From positions 1-64,000 of the forward strand of contig SHZF01000014.1 of assembly GCA_009692425.1 (NCBI GenBank): a stretch of DNA of 64,000 nucleotides, in the 5' to 3' direction. This stretch comes from Myxococcales bacterium (GTDB lineage Bacteria; Myxococcota_A; UBA9042). The notes below the pieces were generated by a model. That model ran no database searches and was not told the DNA's origin. It worked only from the letters and a program-made list of their open reading frames with translations. Positions 20,022 through 32,761 of the stretch are shown in pieces; position 1 is the stretch's first letter, and every line of letters starts with the position of its first letter. The position numbers and the translations under genes were made by a program.

Positions 20022-21653
20022 ATGCCCACCGGTCACACCCCACCGTCACTTCTAGACACCCGCGTCGCGGCTTCGCCCCTGTCGGCAAGTGGCCGTGCCT
20101 TGGCGCTGGCGTTGGCCTTGGTGGTCGGCACGCTCGCCGTTGCGCCAGCGCGCGCGCAAGGTCGACCGACGGCCAGCGCGCCGGCCCCCGAGCTTGCGGG
20201 ACCGGCGGGGCCCGCCAGTGCGAACCTCCCTCCGACGGGTTCGCCAGCCGGCCCCGTGCCCTGGCTCCTCACCGTGCGCCTGCACGACGCCTACGCTGAC
20301 CACCCCGTCGTCGCCGACGTCGCGCGCGTCGGCTACCTGACCGTCGAGACGCGCGACCGCCTGTTGCGCAAGGGCACGCCGTCGGACCGCGCGCTGGCCA
20401 TTGCCGACGCGATGGGCGCGGGTGCCGGGGCCCAAGCGATGGACCGCTTCGTTACGCTGGCCGTGCAAACCCAGCTCAGCATCGGTCCCAGCGGTTCGGT
20501 GCGGAAGGCGGAACTGACCCTCGACAAGCTCGACGCGCGCGCGGCACTGGCGCTCGGGTGGACGCGGGCGCTGGCCAACGCCGGCAACCCCGCTGCGCTC
20601 GGGCGCAAGGCCGCGCGCATCGACGAGGCCGGTGCCCTGCAGTTGCTCGAAAAGGCCGTTGCGCTGGCCCCGGACCACCAGGCACCGCGGGTCGCGTTGG
20701 CGCTGGCCGCGGCGGCGGCCGACCTCGCGCAGCAGAAGAAACTGTGCGCCCGGGCCGTGCAGTTGCAGCTGTCGGCGCGCGCCGGCGGCAAAGAGCCCAT
20801 CCGGCTCGCGGCGGCCGAACGGGTGGTCGCGCTCGCCGCCGAAATGGGCAAGGCGTGCAAGGGCAAGGAACTCGCTGCGTTTGCGGGCGCGCTGCAACTG
20901 CCCGCCCCGGTCGCTGAGACGGTGGCGCCGCTGGGAGGTGGACACGGCGAGCGGCCGACAGCGGGGGCGAGCGCGGCGTTTCACCCGTTCCGCGACGCAT
21001 TCGTCGTGACGGCGCCCGTGTTCAAGGGCTGGATCAAGGACCCGCTCGTGCAAAAGGTGTTCCTGCCGGGCGGCCGCTGCGACGAGGTCGCGGTGGCCGA
21101 GGCGCTGCAGAGCGACCCAACGGGAGACCGGGCGATCGCACTGCTCAACGCGTCCCTGTTGTCGAGCAAGCTCAGCCAGGAGGACAACGCCGACGTCGCC
21201 TGGTGGGCCATCGCGCGGCGGCATGGGGCGATCGACAGCAAGGACAAGCAAAGGACCATCAAGGTCAAGGACCTGACCGGTGCCGAGGCCATGGCATACG
21301 GCTACGCGCGGGCGGCAGCGAGCCTCGGTTTCGCGCCCGGTGTGCCGGACGGGCCGGCGATGGATGCGGGTGCGGCGGAACTGTTCATGCACGGCAAGGC
21401 GCTGATCCCGGCGAACGCGCTGCTGGGGCCGATCTTGTTCCTCGGCCAACAGATCGACGCGGACCGCAAGGCGGACCCTTGCCGGGCGCGCACCCGGGCA
21501 GACGGCGCACGCTTCGTGGTGCAGAAGTCGGCGCTCCCTGAGCCCGCCAAGGCCGCCCTGCTCGAAGCGTTCGCGACCATCGACGCCGGCTGCCCGAGCC
21601 CCGCTGCCCCGGCGTCTGTGCCGCCGCCGGCAGGCGCTCCCGCGCCGAAGTGA
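20022..21653 (+). CDS. Exported protein of unknown function (543 aa)
   Basis: ATG 20022 follows TGGAGG with about 6 nt spacing. The signal peptide lies at ~20-45 (ALALALALVVGTLAVAPARA), preceded by an unusually long 20-residue n-region. The mature protein has a Pro/Ala-rich linker, then WLLTVRLHDAYADHPVVADV, followed by Ala-rich helical repeats (~200-320) that could be TPR-like (LLEKAVALAPDHQAPRVALA). A second half contains four scattered cysteines and ends in a Pro/Ala tail. I do not recognise a family. The following gene overlaps its stop or starts 15 nt after it, so the two are cotranscribed and may act together at the envelope. Confidence 0.7.
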   Translation: MPTGHTPPSLLDTRVAASPLSASGRALALALALVVGTLAVAPARAQGRPTASAPAPELAGPAGPASANLPPTGSPAGPVPWLLTVRLHDAYADHPVVADVARVGYLTVETRDRLLRKGTPSDRALAIADAMGAGAGAQAMDRFVTLAVQTQLSIGPSGSVRKAELTLDKLDARAALALGWTRALANAGNPAALGRKAARIDEAGALQLLEKAVALAPDHQAPRVALALAAAAADLAQQKKLCARAVQLQLSARAGGKEPIRLAAAERVVALAAEMGKACKGKELAAFAGALQLPAPVAETVAPLGGGHGERPTAGASAAFHPFRDAFVVTAPVFKGWIKDPLVQKVFLPGGRCDEVAVAEALQSDPTGDRAIALLNASLLSSKLSQEDNADVAWWAIARRHGAIDSKDKQRTIKVKDLTGAEAMAYGYARAAASLGFAPGVPDGPAMDAGAAELFMHGKALIPANALLGPILFLGQQIDADRKADPCRARTRADGARFVVQKSALPEPAKAALLEAFATIDAGCPSPAAPASVPPPAGAPAPK

Positions 21654-21667
21654 CGAGGTCGAGTCTC

Positions 21668-22738
21668 GTGCCGATCAAGCGCCCCGACCTGCCGCCCCCG
21701 ATGCCCAGCGATGACGACGGGCCGGAGCACACGATGATCCAAGGATCGGCAGGTGACCGCTCGCCGCAACTGCCCGACGATCTGCTGGAAGATCTGCCCG
21801 GGGACCTCCCACACGGTCGCGACTTCGAGCCGCGCGCGGGAACAGGCGAGCAGATGATGCACGCGTTCGACGAGGGCGACCTCGCGGCGGCGCCGCCGCC
21901 TAACCTGCGCAAGGCCTTGGAGCGTCGCATGCCGGCGCCGCGCGGCCAGCGCCCGACGTTGCTCCCGGCGGGCTTCGAGATGCCGCCCAAGCTGCCTGGC
22001 GCGCCGAAGACGGGCGACCCCGCGCTCGTGCGCCCGATGCGCCCTGGCATTGATGCGTCCAAGCAGAACGTCGGCCAGCCACGGGAATCGTCTGACATCA
22101 TCGCAATGTTTGCGGTCGACGGTCCCAAGTCCGTGCCCACGCCGATGCAAAACCGCGGCGGGCCCGTGTCGCGACCGCCGCCGGCCGCGCCGCCGCCGGC
22201 CGCCGGTCGCCTGATTCGGCGCCCTGCGCATCCGCCGCAGCAACCGGCGGCGCCGACGGCGTTGCCCGGTGGGGCCGCCGCGCCGCAGTTCATGTCCAAT
22301 GGACCGCAGTTCATGTCCAACGCGCCGCAGTTCATGTCCAACGCGCCGCAGTTCATGTCCAACGGGCCGCAGTTCATGTCCAACGGGCCGCAGTTCATGG
22401 CCAATGGGCCGCAATTGCTGCCCTTGCACGCAGATCGGGTCTATGCGCTGGTGGGCGAACACCGTTCGCGGTTGGCGCTGCTCGACTTGTGGGCGCGCGG
22501 CCTCGAGATCGGTGCCGGCCTGCTGGGCACGGTCGCGCTGGCCGTGCTGATCGCGTCGCTCGTCACGATCCTGATGGGCCGGGGCGGCGATTTCGTCGGG
22601 GGCGCCACCGCGATCGTCGCATCGTGCGGCGCCCTGGCGCTGACCGCCGTGATGGTGGCCTTGTCCACGACGTTGCGGCACGTGGCGCACGTCAGCGCCC
22701 AGGTCGCGGCGTTGCTGGATGCGCTCAGCGGCCGGTAG
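21668..22738 (+). CDS. Pro-rich membrane protein with heptapeptide PQFMSNG repeats
   Basis: The predicted protein has 356 aa. The first ~200 residues are Pro/Ala-rich and acidic, with no signal peptide. Then come six near-identical copies of PQFMSN(G/A) (21 bp each, 22280-22420) plus a partial seventh, and two transmembrane helices (~270-300 and ~310-335) with a short C-terminus. This suggests a cytoplasmic disordered N-tail tethered to the inner membrane. The start is ambiguous: GTG 21650 overlaps the previous stop as GTGA, while GTG 21668 has GAGG 9 nt upstream and is used here. I do not recognise a family. The identical repeats with few silent changes point to recent expansion. Confidence 0.65.
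   Translation: MPIKRPDLPPPMPSDDDGPEHTMIQGSAGDRSPQLPDDLLEDLPGDLPHGRDFEPRAGTGEQMMHAFDEGDLAAAPPPNLRKALERRMPAPRGQRPTLLPAGFEMPPKLPGAPKTGDPALVRPMRPGIDASKQNVGQPRESSDIIAMFAVDGPKSVPTPMQNRGGPVSRPPPAAPPPAAGRLIRRPAHPPQQPAAPTALPGGAAAPQFMSNGPQFMSNAPQFMSNAPQFMSNGPQFMSNGPQFMANGPQLLPLHADRVYALVGEHRSRLALLDLWARGLEIGAGLLGTVALAVLIASLVTILMGRGGDFVGGATAIVASCGALALTAVMVALSTTLRHVAHVSAQVAALLDALSGR
22283..22429 (+). repeat. In-frame 21-bp tandem repeats (seven units) encoding PQFMSNG
   Basis: Units of 21 bp starting CCGCAGTTCATGTCCAAC differ at only a few positions; the sixth has GCC for TCC and the seventh degrades to PQLLPL. They lie inside the plus-strand membrane protein gene, just before the transmembrane segments. 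Copy number is expected to vary between strains. Confidence 0.85.
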
Positions 22739-24215: not shown

Positions 24216-26081
24216 CTACTTGGCCAGCACGCCGAACGCGATCAGCATCGCAACGAGGATGCCCATCAGGCTCTCCCCGGCAACAAACCCTGAACTGACG
24301 CCGATGACCGCGCGCTCGTGCAGCGCCGGCTTCCAGCGCCGCAGGCCCTCGGCGATGGCGGCGCCAGTGAACATCGACACGGCATTGAAGCCCGGCATCA
24401 CGAAGGCGATGCCCAGCCCATTCGGCGACGGCAGCCAGGGTTGCAGGCGGCGCGGCCCGTGGCGTTCGAGCAAGGTCAGCCCGATCCCGACCGCGGCGCC
24501 CACCAGTGCGGCCCACCGCTTCGTTTCGTCGAGCCCCGCGATGCCGTCGGCCAGCACCTTGCTGACACCCGCCCACACCTGCACCGACGGGGCGGGAAAC
24601 TGGTCGGACCCGAGCACGCTCGCGTCGGGCACCAGCAGGTTGAACGCCGGCACGACGGCGGCGGCGCCCGCGAACACGCCGAAAAACTGCGCATAGAACT
24701 GTTGGCGCGGGTTGGCGCCGAGCAGGTAGCCGCTCTTCAGGTCGGTGAGCAGGTCGGCCGCGTGCAGGCCGACGCCGCCAGTCACGTTGGCGCTCATCAC
24801 GTTCGCTGTGACGTTGCCCGGCAACAGGATGCCGTAGGTCAACTGCGTCACGGGACCGAGCGCCTTGGTCGGCGTCACGTCAGTCTCGCCGGTGACACGC
24901 GCGGCGATCACGCCCATCACGACCGCCAGCGGCAGCGCGATCAGACCCGCCCACACCGGCACGCCGTACAGGTACCCGAGCATCGCGACCACGCACGGAC
25001 CGAGCACGGCGAACCCGGCGGGGAACCACCACTGCGGGCATTCGACGGCCGCAAGCGGGTCGTCTTCGGCCGCCTTGGGCCCGCCCAGCCCGATGAACGC
25101 GCCAAGGCCCGCGAACGCCTTGGCGACGCTGCGCCACTGGTATGCGAACGACAGCAGCCCCGCCGAGACGAGCAGCGCTGCGCCTGGCCATAGCGTCCAC
25201 GTGACCATCTGCTTGAACTTCGGCCCCGCAACCAGGCCGCGCGCCAACAGTTCGGGCGCCAAGACGCCGTATGCGACGAGTGCGCCCAGCAGCAGCGACC
25301 AACCGGTCTTCCAACTCATCAGGGCGCCGCCGCCGACGAGCAGCAGGCTGCCTTCCATGGCGAGCGTGTACTTCGCCGCGCCGGCGCCGAACACGGGCAG
25401 GGTCGCGGGCAGGTTGAACGGCATCCACGCGACCTTGGCATCGCGCAGCCACGCGAACACGGCGCCGATGGCCCCGGCCCCGATCAGCCAGTTCGCCTTG
25501 CCGGCACCACCTTGGGTGTGGTGCAGCGACTTGAGCGTCTCCGCGGTGGCGATGCCGGTGGGGAATGCGACCTGCTCGACGTTGATCAACTGCCGTTTGA
25601 TCGGGATCGCCGCGAACACGCCGAGCCACGCGATCACGGCGAACCACAGCACCATCCAGAACGGCTCGGGGCGAAAACCGGTCAGCAGCAGCAGCGCTGG
25701 AACCGCCGCCATGTTGCCACCGCCGGTCATGTAGCCACCGGCCGACGCGACGGAACTCATTGCGTTGTTTTCGAGCACGGTGAACGGCGTGCGCGACAGG
25801 CCGAGTGCCTGGACGACGCGAAACAGCACAAAGGCGAGCACGCACGCCGTGATCGTCACGCCCATCGACCAACCCGTCTTCAGCACGACGTACAGGTTCG
25901 ACAAGCACAGCACGGCGCCCAGCACCATGCCGGTCAGCACCGCGCGCACCGTCAACTGGCGCGCGCCGGGCTGGTACGTGTGTTCGAGCCAGTATCGCTC
26001 GGGGTCCAGCGCAACGGTGCTGGGCGACGCGGGGTTCTGTGCTGCCGTGGGGCTCGGCGCGGCCCCCGCAGCGCGGCTCAC
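24216..26081 (-). CDS. OPT-family oligopeptide transporter
   Basis: The predicted protein has 621 aa with about 15 hydrophobic spans. Recognisable family stretches are LTVRAVLTGMVLGAVLCLSN near the N-terminus, SVASAGGYMTGGG, INVEQVAFPTGIATAETLKS, and, near the C-terminus, GLGIAFVMPGFNAVSMFTGA and ERAVIGVSSGFVAGESLMGI. OPT proteins import peptides or metal chelates with protons across the inner membrane. The start is a GTG that overlaps the stop of the DUF2330 gene (GTGA), implying coupled translation, and the phospholipase-like gene follows. Bacterial OPT members are poorly characterised and the substrate cannot be read from sequence. Confidence 0.92.
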   Translation of the reverse strand: MSRAAGAAPSPTAAQNPASPSTVALDPERYWLEHTYQPGARQLTVRAVLTGMVLGAVLCLSNLYVVLKTGWSMGVTITACVLAFVLFRVVQALGLSRTPFTVLENNAMSSVASAGGYMTGGGNMAAVPALLLLTGFRPEPFWMVLWFAVIAWLGVFAAIPIKRQLINVEQVAFPTGIATAETLKSLHHTQGGAGKANWLIGAGAIGAVFAWLRDAKVAWMPFNLPATLPVFGAGAAKYTLAMEGSLLLVGGGALMSWKTGWSLLLGALVAYGVLAPELLARGLVAGPKFKQMVTWTLWPGAALLVSAGLLSFAYQWRSVAKAFAGLGAFIGLGGPKAAEDDPLAAVECPQWWFPAGFAVLGPCVVAMLGYLYGVPVWAGLIALPLAVVMGVIAARVTGETDVTPTKALGPVTQLTYGILLPGNVTANVMSANVTGGVGLHAADLLTDLKSGYLLGANPRQQFYAQFFGVFAGAAAVVPAFNLLVPDASVLGSDQFPAPSVQVWAGVSKVLADGIAGLDETKRWAALVGAAVGIGLTLLERHGPRRLQPWLPSPNGLGIAFVMPGFNAVSMFTGAAIAEGLRRWKPALHERAVIGVSSGFVAGESLMGILVAMLIAFGVLAK

Positions 26082-28105
26082 GCGCCCGCCCGATCACGCC
26101 GCGCCCGATCACGCCGCGCCCGCACGGCCACGACCGCTACGGCCGCGAGCGCCCAGGCCAGCCAGGCCGCGGAGCCTGGGGTCGAACGCGCCGCCGAACA
26201 CAAGCCGCCGCTCGACTTGGCAGTCCCGCCCGCAGCAGCCGGCTTTGGTGCCGCACCGACCGCGTCAGTGGCGTCTGTAGCTGCCGGGGCAGAGCCCGCG
26301 TCAGTGGCGTCTGTAGCTGCCGGGGCAGAGCCCGCGTCAGTGGCGTCTGTAGCTGCCGGGGCAGAGCCCGCGTCCGCAGTGCCCGCCCCGGCGTCGGCAC
26401 CGCCGGCAGTGCCGCCGACTTTTGTGGGATTCCAGCCGCTCGCCGCCTTGAGCCCCTGCTTGAACGCCGCCGACAGGCTCGGCTTGCCCACCTGCGCGTT
26501 GTTCAACTCCGCGTCGACCTTGTCGGCATCGTCTGGGTGGATGTCGAGCGGCGCCCCCGACTCGTCCATCACCTGGACTTTGCGGGCCGGTTGACCGCCT
26601 GCGTCGTTCAGCGGTCCCGCGCCCTTGCCGAAGCCGACCTGCCCGGGCCCGAAGCCCCAGCAGAGACCCTGATCCTTCGGCACCGGCACCGTCAGCGTCT
26701 GGCCGTTGGCGAACGTCAGCTTGACCTCGTGGGCCTGCTTGACGCCCGGCGCGCAGATCGGCTCGGCCTTCGCCTTGCGCACCCGCTCGACTTCGGGCAG
26801 GTCGGGGTTGAACGCGAAGATCGGATCCTTGTCCATCTCGGCCGGCGACAGCGTCGTGTACAGGCGCGTCATCCACTTGGCGGCCTTCCAGGCGGCATCG
26901 ACTTCTTGCAGCGGCTTGATGATCAACTGATCGACTTCGGCCGCGAACTTCGCCGCATCGAAGGGCTGGGCGGCGACGGCGGTCTTGTAGTCAGCGCACG
27001 GCGTCTGCGTGCAGTCGTCGCACTGGAGGCAATTGTAGAATTCCTGATCCGTCGCCTTGCCGAACGCCTTGGGCTTGGGCACGTGTTTGCGGATCAGGCT
27101 CTGCATCTGGCTCGAGCGTGGGTACTGGTGCTGCATCATGTACTGCAGGAACTTGCCGGCGCTGCCCTGTTTGGCGAGCTCAGCCGTGTTCCACCCCGGT
27201 TGGGCAAACGGAATCGCGGCCTTGGCCGTGGGCGCCGCCTGTTCGGTCAGCCAGGCGTGGCCGGAGCCCTGGTCGACGGCCTTCGACACGACAGTCTTGT
27301 AGTTGCCGCCGCCCGTCATCCAGTCGAACACAGCGTCGTTGAGCTCCACGTGTAGGAAGTTCTTGGGGATCGCGCGCGCCGCCCCCAGCACCCACGCCAC
27401 GATCGGCATGTCGGGCGCCGCCGCGATCGAGGTCAGCCGGATCGGCAGGCACGGCGCCACTTCGTCGAGCGTGACGACGATCGGCGCCAGATCGCCGGTG
27501 CCCTTGTCCTTGGTCAGCTTGAGCGCGAGGAACACGTACTTCTGATCCACGTACACCTTGAGCAGCGGCTCGGTCGACTTTGGCTGCTGGTAGCCGTTCT
27601 TGTTGAGCCAGTCGATGACCGCCGCGGCGGTTTGGCCCTGGATGACGACCGTGTCGTAGGGGCCGACGGTCTCCTGGGCCAACACGGTGACGCCGTCGAA
27701 GTTGCCGCCGCCCCCGCTGCCGGCGACTGCGTCTTCGAGGCACTGCCCGCCACCCCAACAATCGGCCTTGTTCTGCCAGTCGAGTTGGAATGCCGGCGAC
27801 GTGTACTGTTCGAGCAGTTGGAACACGGTATCGGAGCCGATGCCCAGCTTCGGCAACTTCTGCAGCGGCAGCACCCACGAAAACTGTTTGTCGTCACCGG
27901 TGTAGCTGATCTGGATATGCACCGACAGCTTGCCCGGACCGGTCTGCACGTAGAGGATGCGCTCGGCACTCTGGTCAACGGGCTGGGTGAAGCAGAAGAA
28001 CCCGCCGCATGCCCAGGCCGGCACCGCGGGCAACGACAGTGCTCCGCAGGTGAACAGGCTGGCGACGAACAGGCGGGCGGACGGGAACGGGCGGTTGCGC
28101 TGCAT
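26078..28105 (-). CDS. DUF2330 exported protein with MYXO-CTERM-like tail
   Basis: The predicted protein has 675 aa. GGAGG lies 4 nt before ATG 28105. After the signal peptide the mature N-terminus is ACGGFFC, the hallmark of DUF2330 proteins, followed by family stretches such as QISYTGDDKQFSWVLPL and YQQPKSTEPLLKVYVDQKYVFL. A Cys-rich NCLQCDDCTQTPC segment occurs in the middle. Near the C-terminus a 12-residue Ala/Thr/Asp/Pro unit is repeated three times, and the protein ends GGLCSAARSTPGSAAW, a hydrophobic span and an Arg-rich tail: a MYXO-CTERM-like sorting signal. The function of DUF2330 is unknown. Overlap with the OPT gene suggests a shared surface/uptake role. Confidence 0.9.
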   Translation of the reverse strand: MQRNRPFPSARLFVASLFTCGALSLPAVPAWACGGFFCFTQPVDQSAERILYVQTGPGKLSVHIQISYTGDDKQFSWVLPLQKLPKLGIGSDTVFQLLEQYTSPAFQLDWQNKADCWGGGQCLEDAVAGSGGGGNFDGVTVLAQETVGPYDTVVIQGQTAAAVIDWLNKNGYQQPKSTEPLLKVYVDQKYVFLALKLTKDKGTGDLAPIVVTLDEVAPCLPIRLTSIAAAPDMPIVAWVLGAARAIPKNFLHVELNDAVFDWMTGGGNYKTVVSKAVDQGSGHAWLTEQAAPTAKAAIPFAQPGWNTAELAKQGSAGKFLQYMMQHQYPRSSQMQSLIRKHVPKPKAFGKATDQEFYNCLQCDDCTQTPCADYKTAVAAQPFDAAKFAAEVDQLIIKPLQEVDAAWKAAKWMTRLYTTLSPAEMDKDPIFAFNPDLPEVERVRKAKAEPICAPGVKQAHEVKLTFANGQTLTVPVPKDQGLCWGFGPGQVGFGKGAGPLNDAGGQPARKVQVMDESGAPLDIHPDDADKVDAELNNAQVGKPSLSAAFKQGLKAASGWNPTKVGGTAGGADAGAGTADAGSAPAATDATDAGSAPAATDATDAGSAPAATDATDAVGAAPKPAAAGGTAKSSGGLCSAARSTPGSAAWLAWALAAVAVVAVRARRDRARRDRAGA
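26262..26369. repeat. Three exact 36-bp tandem repeats inside the DUF2330 gene
   Basis: The unit GCGTCAGTGGCGTCTGTAGC plus 16 bases is present at 26262-26297, 26298-26333 and 26334-26369 without any difference. On the coding (minus) strand it encodes a 12-residue Ala/Thr/Asp/Gly/Ser/Pro spacer just before the sorting tail. Perfect identity means recent slippage, and length polymorphism is likely. Confidence 0.88.
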
Positions 28106-28195: not shown

Positions 28196-29662
28196 TCAAT
28201 GTCCGGTCCCGGTCTTCGGAAACTTCTCCTGGAACTTCTTGACCCACCCATCGACCGTCGCGTCGTCGGCGATGTCGGCGCCCAGAGGCGACATCTGCAG
28301 GTCCATCGTCGTCGCACCGTGGGGCGTGGTCACCGCATCGTCCAACTGCATCGACACGAGTTGCATCCGGGCGCGCGTGCTGGCGAGTTGACCCTCCATC
28401 ATCTTGCGGGTCTCGTCGTTCAACTGCAGCGGCGAGTCGGGCTTGTTGGCGCCGTCGAGTTGGGCCTGCAGGCTCATGACCTGTTGGGCGAGCAGTGCGC
28501 GCTCAGACATCAGCGACGCCTTGAGCTTGGCCGGGAACACGTTGCGCTTGTCGGCGCGCACCTCGAATTTGAGCTCGCCCAGGTACTTGCCCTTCGTGTA
28601 GGCATCGGCCCACCAGGCATTGCCCATGCGTGTCAGTTGGTTCGACAGCTCCATGTCGGTCGAGCCCAGCGCGAGCGTGATGCCCTTGACGGCGGTCAGT
28701 ACGCGCTCGAGTTCCATCCGCCGCAATTGGGTCAGCGCGATGATGACGTCGCAGTCCTGGGCCTGCAGTTCCGCCACGACCTCGCGCGCGGCGGTGCCGG
28801 GAGCGCGGAGTTCGAGGCCCTGGTCAACGACGTACTTGCCGAGTTCCGGCGGGGAATCGGACATCAGGCCGAACAGACCAATCTTCAGCGGCCCGACCTG
28901 CTTGACGATCGAACGCGCAAACGCGGGCTTGCCCGTTTTGCTGTCGAACAGGTTCGCCGAGAGCAGAGCGACCTTGTGGGCCTTCGTCAACCGGCGCAGG
29001 TCGGCGATGCCCAGGGCGAGGTCGTTGAGCCCGACGTTCAGCGCAGTGTAGCCGAGGTGGTCGTACGTCTTGAGCAACACCTCGGCGCGGGCGACGGCTT
29101 CACCCGGCCGTTCCGTCGGAGCCATCGGGTTGACAGTGAAAAGCGCGCCAGTGTCGACCAGCAACGTGTGCGGCCGCTTGCCGTGTTTGTCTTGCCACCA
29201 TGTCGAGCGCCGGGCCAGACCGCCCAGCGGAGCGCGCGCTCAACCGCACGGATCGGTCTCACCGATCACGTTGCCGGTAAACCCGACGACGACTTCCATC
29301 TCGGCGGCGACCGGCGGCTGCGGCGGGTCGGTGGCGTCGGCAGGGCTCGGCTCGGGCAGGCTGGCGAGCGTTCCGGCGACGCCCACGGGCGGCATCGTCG
29401 CGGGCGGCGGCAGCGCTTCGGCGGCGGCGAGCAGGCGGGCGTGCACGGCGGCGGCGGCCTGGGCTCCCGACGTCGGCGCTTGCGGGGTGGCAGCGACCGG
29501 TGGTGAGGCGGCTTGGGCAGCGATCCCTGCGGGCACCGGCGCGGCGACTCCTTGGGCAGCGCCGGCATTGCGACCGTGCAGCAGCCACAGACCGACAGCG
29601 GCCGGCACGGCGATCGCGATGACGGCGACGACGGTCTTGCGCAGGTTCATGGGCAGGTTCAT
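28196..29662 (-). CDS. UshA-like (5'-nucleotidase-related) protein, predicted selenoprotein with in-frame UGA
   Basis: Two open stretches, 29662-29243 and 29239-28196, share one reading frame and are separated only by TGA at 29240-29242 (codon 141). Translation reads FTGNVIGETDPCG, TGA, ARAPLGGLARRSTWW and then LLVDTGALF. Cys homologues of this family, as I recall them, read PCGC...LGGLARRA at this place, so UGA replaces the second Cys. A hairpin with GGUCUG loop follows (see 29208-29229). The whole is 488 residues: N-terminal anchor (~8-28), Ala/Pro linker, then a 5'-nucleotidase-like fold whose metal ligands (DxH, GNHE) are not conserved, so it is probably not a nucleotidase. The DUF2330 gene follows 90 bp later. 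No sel genes are in the window. The alternative is a pseudogene with a nonsense mutation. Confidence 0.8.
29208..29229 (-). promoter_or_regulatory. Bacterial SECIS-like hairpin downstream of in-frame UGA
   Basis: Counting from the base after UGA, positions 11-18 (CGCUGGGC) pair with 25-32 (GCCCGGCG) over eight base pairs with one G-U, enclosing the hexaloop GGUCUG (19-24). As I remember it, the Escherichia coli fdhF element also has GGUCUG starting 18 nt after its UGA. SelB recognises the G-rich apical loop in bacterial elements. The hairpin lies within the coding sequence, as is usual for bacteria. Confidence 0.75.
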
Positions 29663-29803: not shown

Positions 29804-31360
29804 ATGCCCCTGCCGCGCCTGTTCCCGGATCGCCCGTCGCGCCTGCGCGCGCTCGCCGTCGCGTGCGTCGTGGCGGCTGTGTACGCGGGTTTCTCGTGGA
29901 ATTGGTTGCTCGCGCCGTCGCGCCATTTCCACTTCATCGACATGGCCTGGGGTATGCTGCACGGCCGCCTCGATACCGACACCCCGCGCCGTGCGCCGGG
30001 GATTCCGCCCAAGCCCGACGACCCGCCCGGCTTGCAGGAAGCGATCGATCGGCACTTGCTCGACGCCAACGGCAAGAACCTGGGCTGGAACGACTGGGCG
30101 TCCTACCGCAAGCTCGTCTTGAAGGGTGGCCAGCACGTGCGCGGCGTGTTCCCGTGGAAGGACGACGCCGGCACGCGCAACCGCGACTTCTTCGCGACTG
30201 ACGGCCGCACCTACGTCATCGACATCGCCAAGGATCTCCAGACCGGCTGTGACCCGGCGCGCGCCTGGGCGGCGTGCGACGAGGTGGTGCACCAGGTGTC
30301 GTTCCCGCCGTTGCCAGCCGTGCTGATGGCGCCGCTCGTCGCGCTCGTCGGCTACCGGGTCCACGACGTGCTGTTCACCTTGGCGTTTGCGGTGTTGTCT
30401 GCCGTGCTCGCGTTGGCCTGGATCGAGCGGATGGGCCGCGCGGGCCTGCACGCCCACGGTGCGCGCGACCGACTGTGGCTTGTGGCCCTGTTCGCATTCT
30501 CGTCGGTGGCGCTGTACTGCTCGATCCGGGGCGAGGTGTGGTTCACGGCGCTGGTCATGGGCGTCACGTTCCACTTTGCCTATGTGTTTGCCGCTGAAGG
30601 GGGGCGCCGTCCCCTGCTGGCGGGCCTGCTTTTCGGCCTCGGCGTGGCGACGCGCACGCCCCTGTTGTTTGCCGGGGCGTTTTTTCCCCTTGAAGTGTTA
30701 TGGCCTGGGCGCCGCGTGCTGGGCGGCGCCGGCATTGCGGGACTGCGCGGCGCAATCCGACCGCTGGTGTTGTTCGCGCTGCCCGCCGTCGGCATCGGTG
30801 TGCTGCTGGCGTGGTACAACTGGGTGCGGTGGGAGAATCCATTCGAATTCGGACACTTCTACCTGCTCGAAGGCACGCGCGGGCCGACGCGCGAGCACGG
30901 CCTGTTCAGCTTCTGGTTCCTGAACCACAATCTCGGCACGGCTCTGCTGAACCTGCCGCAGTTCCTGCTCGAGCCGCCGTTCGTGCTCGTGACGCGCCAT
31001 GGGCTCGGCTTGTTCGCGTGCACGCCGGCCTTGCTGGCCCTGCTGGGCACGCCGCCACAGCCACCATCCGGAACTCCTCTGCCAGACCCCGCGCTCGCCG
31101 AGCGCCGCGCCGGACTGGCGCGCAACCTGATGCTCACGGTGGCCGCGGTGGCGATTCCGGGCGTGCTGTACCAGAATGACGGGTGGCAGCAGTTCGGCTA
31201 TCGGTTTGCGCTCGATTTTTGGCCACCGTTGCTCGGCGTCGTTGCGCTGCGCCTGCCGTACCTGACGCGGCGGTGGAAGGCGCTCGTGGTGCTCGGCATC
31301 GTCGTGCAGGCGTTCGGCGCCGTGACGTTCGGTCGCATGGAAGGGTTCTACTACGATTGA
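29804..31360 (+). CDS. Multi-pass membrane protein, GT-C glycosyltransferase-like
   Basis: The predicted protein has 518 aa with about ten transmembrane spans. The first loop after TM1 contains FHFIDMAWGMLHGRLDTD, which resembles the HFVYLAxAxLxGRLD segment of lipid-linked-sugar-dependent (GT-C) glycosyltransferases, and a ~130-residue periplasmic loop follows before the next span (SFPPLPAVLMAPLVAL). Other polar motifs are YNWVRWENPFEFG and YQNDGWQQFGYRFALDFWP, both typical of GT-C proteins. The sugar donor and acceptor cannot be inferred. ATG 29804 lacks a good Shine-Dalgarno but is the first codon before the N-terminal span. It diverges from the selenoprotein gene and precedes the glutamate-cysteine ligase gene by 48 bp. 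Confidence 0.65.
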   Translation: MPLPRLFPDRPSRLRALAVACVVAAVYAGFSWNWLLAPSRHFHFIDMAWGMLHGRLDTDTPRRAPGIPPKPDDPPGLQEAIDRHLLDANGKNLGWNDWASYRKLVLKGGQHVRGVFPWKDDAGTRNRDFFATDGRTYVIDIAKDLQTGCDPARAWAACDEVVHQVSFPPLPAVLMAPLVALVGYRVHDVLFTLAFAVLSAVLALAWIERMGRAGLHAHGARDRLWLVALFAFSSVALYCSIRGEVWFTALVMGVTFHFAYVFAAEGGRRPLLAGLLFGLGVATRTPLLFAGAFFPLEVLWPGRRVLGGAGIAGLRGAIRPLVLFALPAVGIGVLLAWYNWVRWENPFEFGHFYLLEGTRGPTREHGLFSFWFLNHNLGTALLNLPQFLLEPPFVLVTRHGLGLFACTPALLALLGTPPQPPSGTPLPDPALAERRAGLARNLMLTVAAVAIPGVLYQNDGWQQFGYRFALDFWPPLLGVVALRLPYLTRRWKALVVLGIVVQAFGAVTFGRMEGFYYD

Positions 31361-31408
31361 GTGGGCGGGCGCGGCGCGGCCACGGCATCTATCGGGCGGG
31401 AGACGGGC

Positions 31409-32761
31409 ATGGGACAAGCATCGGAGCCTCTGGAGTCATTGCGGGCGTGCACCGATTGGGTCGTGTCGGGCTGCAAGCCGCGCAAGGCCTTTCGCATCGG
31501 CACGGAGTACGAGCGTTTCGCGGTCGATGTGGCCGGCAACATGCTGCCGTACGACGGCGCGATCAGCATCCACACGCTGTTCGAGCGCCTGCAGGCCCGC
31601 GGCTGGCAGCCCTACCTCGAAGGCGGCAGGCCCATCGCGCTGTTCCGCGACGGTGCGTCGATTTCGTTGGAGCCGGCGGGGCAGTTCGAGCTGTCGGGCG
31701 CGCCGCAGCCGTCCATCACGGCAATGCGCCAAGAACTGGTCGATCACCTCGCCGAAATGAAGGCGGTCGCCCACGACCTTCGCGTGTCTCTGATCCACGT
31801 CGGCCTGAATCCGCGCGACACGGTCGATGCCGTGCCGAACATGCCCAAGGGCCGCTACGGCGTGATGCGGGCGTGGATGCCGACGGTCGGTTCGCTCGGC
31901 CTCGACATGATGCACCTGACGTGTACGGTGCAGGCAAACCTCGACTTCGAGACGCCCGAGGAGGCGATCGAACTCGTGCGGCTCGGCTTCCTGCTGGGGC
32001 CGGTGCTCATCGCGCTGTTTGCCAACTCGCCACGTCGCCACGGCTTCGATTCCGGCTACGCGACCTTTCGCGCCCACATCTGGACCGATGTGGACCGCGC
32101 CCGCTGCGATGCGAGCCGCTTCGCCTACGACCCGGCCGCGACCATCCAAGACTACGTCGATTGGGCGCTCGACGTGCCGGTCTACTTTCTCGATGTGCTC
32201 AACCCGGACGGCAGCCACGGCTACCGGGGCATGGACGGCAAGACGACGTTTCGCGACTTCTTCGAGCGCGGCATCGACGGTCGGCGGCCGACGCTGGCAG
32301 ACTGGGAACTGCACGCATCGACCCTGTTTCCCGACGTGCGGCTCAAGCGCTACGTCGAAGTGCGCCAGGCCGACTGCGTGCCGCCCGAGGCGCTGCCGGC
32401 GCTGCCGGCCCTGTGCAAGGGCCTGTTCTACGACGTGACCGCGCGACGCGACACGTTGGCGCTGCTGCGCGACGGCGATCGCGGGCTGGATCGGGCGGCC
32501 TTGCGCGAACTGGCGTGCCGCTCCGCGCTCGATGGGCGCATGGGCGACGTAGACCTGCGCCAGTGGGCGCGCGGCGTGTTGGCCTTGGCTCGCCAAGGGC
32601 TGGCGCGGCTCGAAGCGGAGATGGGCCCCGACCCGGCCGCAGCGCCCGCGCTCGACGTGCTCGACGCGATCGTGGCCAAGCAGCGCCTGCCGTTCTGGCA
32701 GGAGACAAGCCTCGTGTTGGGCGAGCGACTGAGCCTGGCCAGCCTGCCGGGCGGCTGGTAG
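31409..32761 (+). CDS. gshA: Glutamate-cysteine ligase (plant/alphaproteobacterial type)
   Basis: The predicted protein has 450 aa, matching the ~450 aa of GCS2-type ligases. ATP-dependent joining of glutamate and cysteine gives gamma-glutamylcysteine, the first step of glutathione synthesis (the related EgtA makes it for ergothioneine). Family blocks are FRIGTEYERFAVD near the start, ISLEPAGQFELSGAP, MRAWMPTVGSLGLDMMHLTC (metal/ATP region), FANSPRRHGFDSGYATFRAH and the closing LPFWQETSLVLGE. ATG 31409 has GGGAGA 5 nt upstream; the frame is open 16 codons earlier without a better start. No gshB or egtB is nearby in this window, so glutathione is the more conservative but not proven end product. 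Confidence 0.88.
   Translation: MGQASEPLESLRACTDWVVSGCKPRKAFRIGTEYERFAVDVAGNMLPYDGAISIHTLFERLQARGWQPYLEGGRPIALFRDGASISLEPAGQFELSGAPQPSITAMRQELVDHLAEMKAVAHDLRVSLIHVGLNPRDTVDAVPNMPKGRYGVMRAWMPTVGSLGLDMMHLTCTVQANLDFETPEEAIELVRLGFLLGPVLIALFANSPRRHGFDSGYATFRAHIWTDVDRARCDASRFAYDPAATIQDYVDWALDVPVYFLDVLNPDGSHGYRGMDGKTTFRDFFERGIDGRRPTLADWELHASTLFPDVRLKRYVEVRQADCVPPEALPALPALCKGLFYDVTARRDTLALLRDGDRGLDRAALRELACRSALDGRMGDVDLRQWARGVLALARQGLARLEAEMGPDPAAAPALDVLDAIVAKQRLPFWQETSLVLGERLSLASLPGGW

Follow-up and report, generated by a model that had tools for sequence, protein, structure and literature searches.

Two open reading frames on the minus strand of the window (the whole stretch of 64,000 nucleotides that was analysed), located at positions 29240-29662 (140 aa) and 28196-29164 (the downstream piece, with a TTG start), raise the question of whether they are separate genes or parts of a single gene containing a UGA codon read as selenocysteine (Sec). 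The two ORFs constitute one frame, and the sole break within 488 codons is a TGA at 29242-29240 (minus strand), in the context GETDPCG-TGA-ARAPLGGLARR. An earlier sequence-only reading of this DNA had claimed one frame with a single TGA; the frame, the coordinates and the codon were found to be exactly as it gave them. It had also taken the sequence past the UGA to be of coding quality, in agreement with the 37-52% identity observed there in the Sec-encoding relatives from the same taxonomic family. The conserved domain begins only about 17 residues before the UGA, because approximately 120 of the 140 preceding residues form the signal peptide and a variable linker. Inspection of the sequences of several orthologues revealed a lipoprotein-type box (Cys) at the N terminus. 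The features of the locus are summarized in Table 1.

Table 1. Predicted features of the selenoprotein locus and its divergent neighbours
Feature	Position	Strand	Remarks
Predicted heme-less UshA-like (PCGU) selenoprotein gene	28196..29662	minus	488 residues with Sec141; genuine stop is TGA
In-frame UGA, probably read as selenocysteine (Cys139-Gly140-Sec141)	29240..29242	minus	Homologue codons: 26 TGA, 4 Cys
Putative N-terminal signal peptide or membrane anchor	29540..29662	minus	Sequence inspection
SECIS-type hairpin of the bacterial kind, with an 8-bp stem and, 18 nt past the UGA, the apical loop GGUCUG	29208..29229	minus	
Predicted UshA/5'-nucleotidase-type metallophosphoesterase fold with helical hairpin tail	28199..29290	minus	AlphaFold, Foldseek, ligand table
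Membrane protein, weak similarity to LA_3751/LA_3752 putative glycosyltransferases	29804..31360	plus	Divergent neighbour
Glutamate-cysteine ligase (GCS2, plant-type)	31361..32761	plus	Second divergent neighbour

Codons at the UGA position in homologous genes

We searched 52 genomes of the class to which the window belongs and extracted 30 homologous loci. The joined product was aligned with these homologues, as the sequence-only reading had proposed, and the position of the UGA was found to be occupied by either Sec or Cys (26 TGA and 4 Cys codons, n=30). Three of the Cys forms contain the motif PCGC (L031, L035 and L049) and the fourth DCGC (L044). Among relatives from the same family, the Sec forms share 37-52% and the Cys forms 31-46% identity with the window protein. 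The CxU motif (Cys beside Sec) is near-invariant among the homologues, and PCGU is followed by an invariant GGL in those that were aligned. One Sec homologue, L048 of genome G029, carries PSG-UGA, with Ser replacing the partner Cys, and would be devoid of a resolving thiol at this site. A scan of genome contigs performed with the single protein revealed no relatives; the same scan with an alignment detected 15, all from uncultured MAGs, most of them titled Myxococcales or Deltaproteobacteria.

The Sec/Cys label appears to have changed about 3-4 times on the tree, and at least three times. The strongest single test of the predicted Sec decoding is offered by one genus (g4), in which the codon is TGA in three genomes (G033, G034 and G036) and a Cys codon in two others (G035, TGT; G037, TGC). 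In the Cys genes of G035 and G037 the stem of the hairpin has decayed to 3 and 2 pairs, respectively, and the loop in G037 is GGATTG. Both genomes retain tRNA-Sec, which indicates that selection on the hairpin tracked the codon and not the machinery.

SECIS-type hairpin and selenocysteine machinery

The hairpin downstream of the UGA is composed of (i) a 5' arm, CGCTGGGC (29229-29222), (ii) the loop GGTCTG (29221-29216) and (iii) a 3' arm, GCCCGGCG (29215-29208), all on the minus strand; one of the 8 pairs of the stem is U-G. The loop, the length of the stem and the distance of 18 nt from the UGA had been described in the same way in the sequence-only reading, whose comparison with the Escherichia coli fdhF element was also accurate: within a 44-nt stretch of fdhF, GGTCTG is located 18 nt after the TGA in 5388 of 5426 E. 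coli genomes. In 200,000 synonymous resamplings based on the codon usage of the gene itself, an 8-bp stem at this site combined with a GGTCT loop arose by chance in 0.95% of cases. The folding energy of the hairpin was ordinary when compared with synonymous shuffles (z -0.1), and was therefore left out of the evidence. Given this chance rate of about 1% and the ordinary energy, the hairpin of one GC-rich gene is by itself suggestive, but modest, evidence.

Unlike the hairpin of a single gene, the comparative evidence is decisive and strongly supports the decoding of the UGA as Sec. Across the Sec genes, 94% of the stem cells are paired; shuffles reach 84%, and slid versions do not exceed 44%. 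The number of stem cells altered on both sides is 11, versus 2.6 in shuffles. The compensatory changes convert G-C to U-A at two positions of the stem. The glycine codon of the loop is GGT in all 26 Sec genes, whereas approximately 4.8 would be expected from codon usage. In two Sec genes (L030 and L034; the genomes are G033 and G034), the pair that closes the loop is a C-C mismatch, the remainder of the stem being intact. An Rfam scan of the window at gathering thresholds identified one tRNA and no match to a bacterial SECIS family. When the genome was searched for further selenoproteins using the SECIS model of the gene itself, only this gene was retrieved; the model is not a general one, since it contains the PLGGLARR codons.

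The genome containing the window (G000; 4.9 Mb, 137 contigs, 96% complete) encodes (i) selA (contig C80, 457 bits), (ii) selB (C32, 253 bits), (iii) two selD genes (C50, 367 bits; C84, 226 bits) and (iv) two tRNA-Sec genes with the anticodon UCA (C68 and C7), so that each of the components to be looked for according to the sequence-only reading was found. A tRNA-Sec gene was detected in 24 of 27 UGA-form genomes versus 13 of 25 others, a comparison uncorrected for phylogeny; the UGA-form genomes in which it was not detected (G003, G019 and G024) are incomplete MAGs.

The two tRNA-Sec(UCA) genes of G000 (C68:6545-6637 and C7:4466-4558; L001 and L002) differ from each other, being 86% identical, whereas the 36 other genomes of the class that are tRNA-Sec-positive have one such gene apiece at the same threshold. 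The sequences flanking the C7 gene match those of relatives; those flanking the C68 gene mostly do not, and the latter may therefore be a genuine second copy or come from a contaminating contig. One of the selD genes (C84:922-1839; L019) is located behind a fused NADH-dehydrogenase-like domain (judged by eye) and encodes Cys in the motif PCGGCGAK; the other (L018) is stand-alone.

Two other readings of the UGA were considered. It could be a real stop, created by pseudogenization or a sequencing error, or separating two genes, as might be supposed from the stop in the sequence as such and from the possible TTG start at 29164. The same UGA is, however, spread over 26 genomes of many genera, with sequence conserved on both sides and Cys in its place in other genomes, and the downstream piece alone would contain neither the conserved DPCG nor the first strand. 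Judged by comparison of the homologous sequences, this reading is refuted, and we consider its probability negligible. UGA recoding occurs in some bacteria, and a change of the code throughout the genome, or generic suppression, might likewise place Trp, Cys or a different standard residue at this codon. The gene itself terminates at TGA, which indicates that this codon is still a stop outside the SECIS context and that the code has not changed genome-wide; moreover, the Sec machinery is complete, and the SECIS-type hairpin is kept together with the UGA and decays in the Cys forms. A standard residue at this position is consequently just as improbable as a real stop. The homologue codons, the comparison of hairpins and the Sec machinery all support the sequence-only reading: the sel genes are present, the homologues carry Cys or Sec at this site, and the coding signal persists beyond it. 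Sec is almost certainly inserted at 29240-29242.

Fold and possible role of the protein

A Pfam search with the window protein gave nothing above threshold. The AlphaFold model of the domain has a mean pLDDT of 89.5, and the predicted fold was matched by Foldseek to UshA, CD73 and SoxB (E about 1e-18 to 1e-20). The overall fold is retained, while all five dimetal ligand motifs of 5'-nucleotidase/calcineurin-like metallophosphoesterases are substituted: (i) D-x-H by N-x-I, (ii) GD by GA, (iii) GNH by GLN, (iv) the His of motif IV by Gln and (v) GHxH by GSTDM. A loss of the metal ligands relative to UshA-type enzymes had been proposed from the sequence and is thus confirmed for every motif. GD and the His of motif IV are retained in most of the more distant homologues. 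According to the alignment, Cys-Gly-Sec is placed a few residues past the first strand, where the old metal site was.

The most probable course of events may be outlined as follows. On reaching the UGA, the ribosome would be supplied with Sec-tRNA-Sec by SelB bound to the GGUCUG hairpin, and translation would then run on to the second, genuine TGA stop. The product would be exported and would adopt the fold of the UshA-type catalytic domain without its dimetal site, presenting Cys-Gly-Sec where the active site used to be, on the loop that follows the first strand. The Cys/Sec pair would most probably cycle between the selenenyl-sulfide and the thiol/selenol forms, the protein being a thiol-selenol oxidoreductase of the envelope. 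The motif of the canonical relatives, which bear heme, would exchange electrons with the attached tetraheme module; in the heme-less branch, this role would have to fall to some other redox partner or to a soluble thiol. A redox role of Cys-Gly-Sec in the cell envelope, suggested by the CxU motif and by the heme-fused relatives, is in our opinion reasonably probable.

Near the gene, neither the window nor the fetched loci of the relatives contain an ORF with at least two CxxCH motifs, so that no electron partner of the heme-less clade is obvious there. Of the 13 relatives whose flanking sequence is long enough, 12 have the divergent membrane-protein gene next to the selenogene, and 11 have the glutamate-cysteine ligase gene as well; one contig ends after the membrane-protein gene. 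The ligase was recognized by PF04107 (183 bits) and by TIGR01436 (330 bits, under its cut-off of 463 bits). Glutamate-cysteine ligase makes the glutathione precursor, and the gene order is a weak hint at a connection with a glutathione-type thiol. No sigma-70-type site was identified when the intergenic stretch between the divergent genes was scanned for promoters. The DUF2330 gene (26078-28105, minus) and the downstream OPT transporter (24216-26081) were rejected as functional clues, since neither is conserved beside the selenogene in relatives. The TDAGSAPAATDA units are short coding repeats close to the C-terminal end of the DUF2330 protein; another ORF (21650-22738, plus) contains the short coding repeats QFMSNGP/QFMSNAP.

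The main rival to the redox reading is one in which Sec is incorporated and Cys-Gly-Sec acts chiefly as a ligand of a soft metal or a cofactor (in binding, sensing or detoxification of a metal). CxU is a motif characteristic of thiol redox proteins, Sec and Cys have been swapped across the tree as in redox selenoproteins, and the canonical branch has multiheme cytochromes as fusion partners, all of which argue against a ligand role. In its favour, the motif lies at the ancestral metal site, PCGU is rigidly kept with the invariant GGL behind it, and the UshA-like family was among the few without an established Cys-based redox motif in the 2008 survey (PMC2398784). We regard a ligand role as possible, but unlikely. 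That the protein is still a working 5'-nucleotidase or phosphoesterase, with Sec being incidental, might be supposed from the predicted fold matching UshA and CD73 and from the NCBIfam similarity to UshA; the substitution of all the ligand motifs makes this very improbable. Returning to the redox reading, its most detailed version assumes that in the heme-less branch a dead 5'-nucleotidase site was turned into a selenium-based envelope redox enzyme, which uses a low-molecular-weight thiol produced by the divergently encoded glutamate-cysteine ligase and operates beside a heme-bearing Cys paralogue retained in the same genomes. Taken as a whole, this scenario is doubtful.

Relationship to known UshA-like selenoproteins

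The window protein matches the NCBIfam model NF041198 (UshA_like_PCGU, "UshA-like (seleno)protein") over residues 120-484 with 182 bits, the cut-off being 275; the alignment covers model positions 20-381 of 519, and the PCG[UC] motif of the model is present in the UshA-like domain. This score, which is under the curated cut-off, makes it plausible that ordinary annotation splits the gene. The protein contains no CxxCH heme motif, and no heme-less member of its taxonomic family reached at least 275 bits among the matches listed. A survey of 284 genomes of the phylum revealed two architectures: canonical members span model positions ~20-518, while the clade of the window covers positions ~20-385 only and carries no CxxCH. 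Among the best 12 canonical members, 11 (all Sec) contain four CxxCH motifs and one Cys form contains three.

An UshA-like family (COG0737) with CxU was reported in the 2008 ocean survey (PMC2398784), and a 2026 review lists NF041198 with CxU and NF049981 with CxxU (PMC13188914). Because the family is already catalogued, Sec at this locus does not define a new one; on the basis of sequence, the window protein is a shortened, heme-less variant of a known selenoprotein family. In the literature searched, we came across no account of the heme-less, sub-threshold clade as a group of its own, and the 2008 survey may include some of its members.

Among the matches listed, most relatives from the taxonomic family of the window keep a heme-bearing paralogue of canonical architecture. 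In G000, the paralogue of this architecture is a Cys form (L022; C129:76842-78290, plus strand) that contains PCGC and ends in a heme module of the cytochrome c554 type. It shares its contig with the selenogene, at a distance of approximately 48 kb; comparable gene pairs, about 30 kb apart on one contig, are present in G033, G035, G036 and G037.

These results add a clade whose members are probable selenoproteins; it is distributed across the class of the window, falls under the cut-off of the NCBI model and may therefore be annotated as truncated pairs. They also indicate that the Sec motif of the UshA-like family can exist without the heme module, so that the chemistry of the Sec site would be separable from cytochrome electron transfer, and the heme-less form provides a smaller target for learning what UshA-like selenoproteins do. 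The Sec/Cys swaps within one genus, accompanied by decay of the hairpin, constitute a clean natural test of SECIS function.

Compared with known systems, the window protein shares its predicted fold with the UshA/CD73 5'-nucleotidases and SoxB, but differs from them in the loss of the metal ligands, the addition of Cys-Gly-Sec and the lack of the C-terminal substrate-binding domain. With the SECIS element of E. coli fdhF the gene has in common a GGUCUG loop starting 18 nt past the UGA, although the host protein and the stem sequence are different. The sequence around the Sec site is related to that of NF049981 ("UshA-like (seleno)protein family 2"; 52 bits), but the score is far under the cut-off of 140 bits, and the motif is CxU rather than CxxU. 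The window protein lacks the C-terminal multiheme (cytochrome c554-type) tetraheme module of the canonical NF041198 members, but shares with them the UshA-type fold, PCGU with the UGA at the same codon and PLGGL behind it, and a SECIS element that is identically placed and in most cases has the GGUCU loop too.
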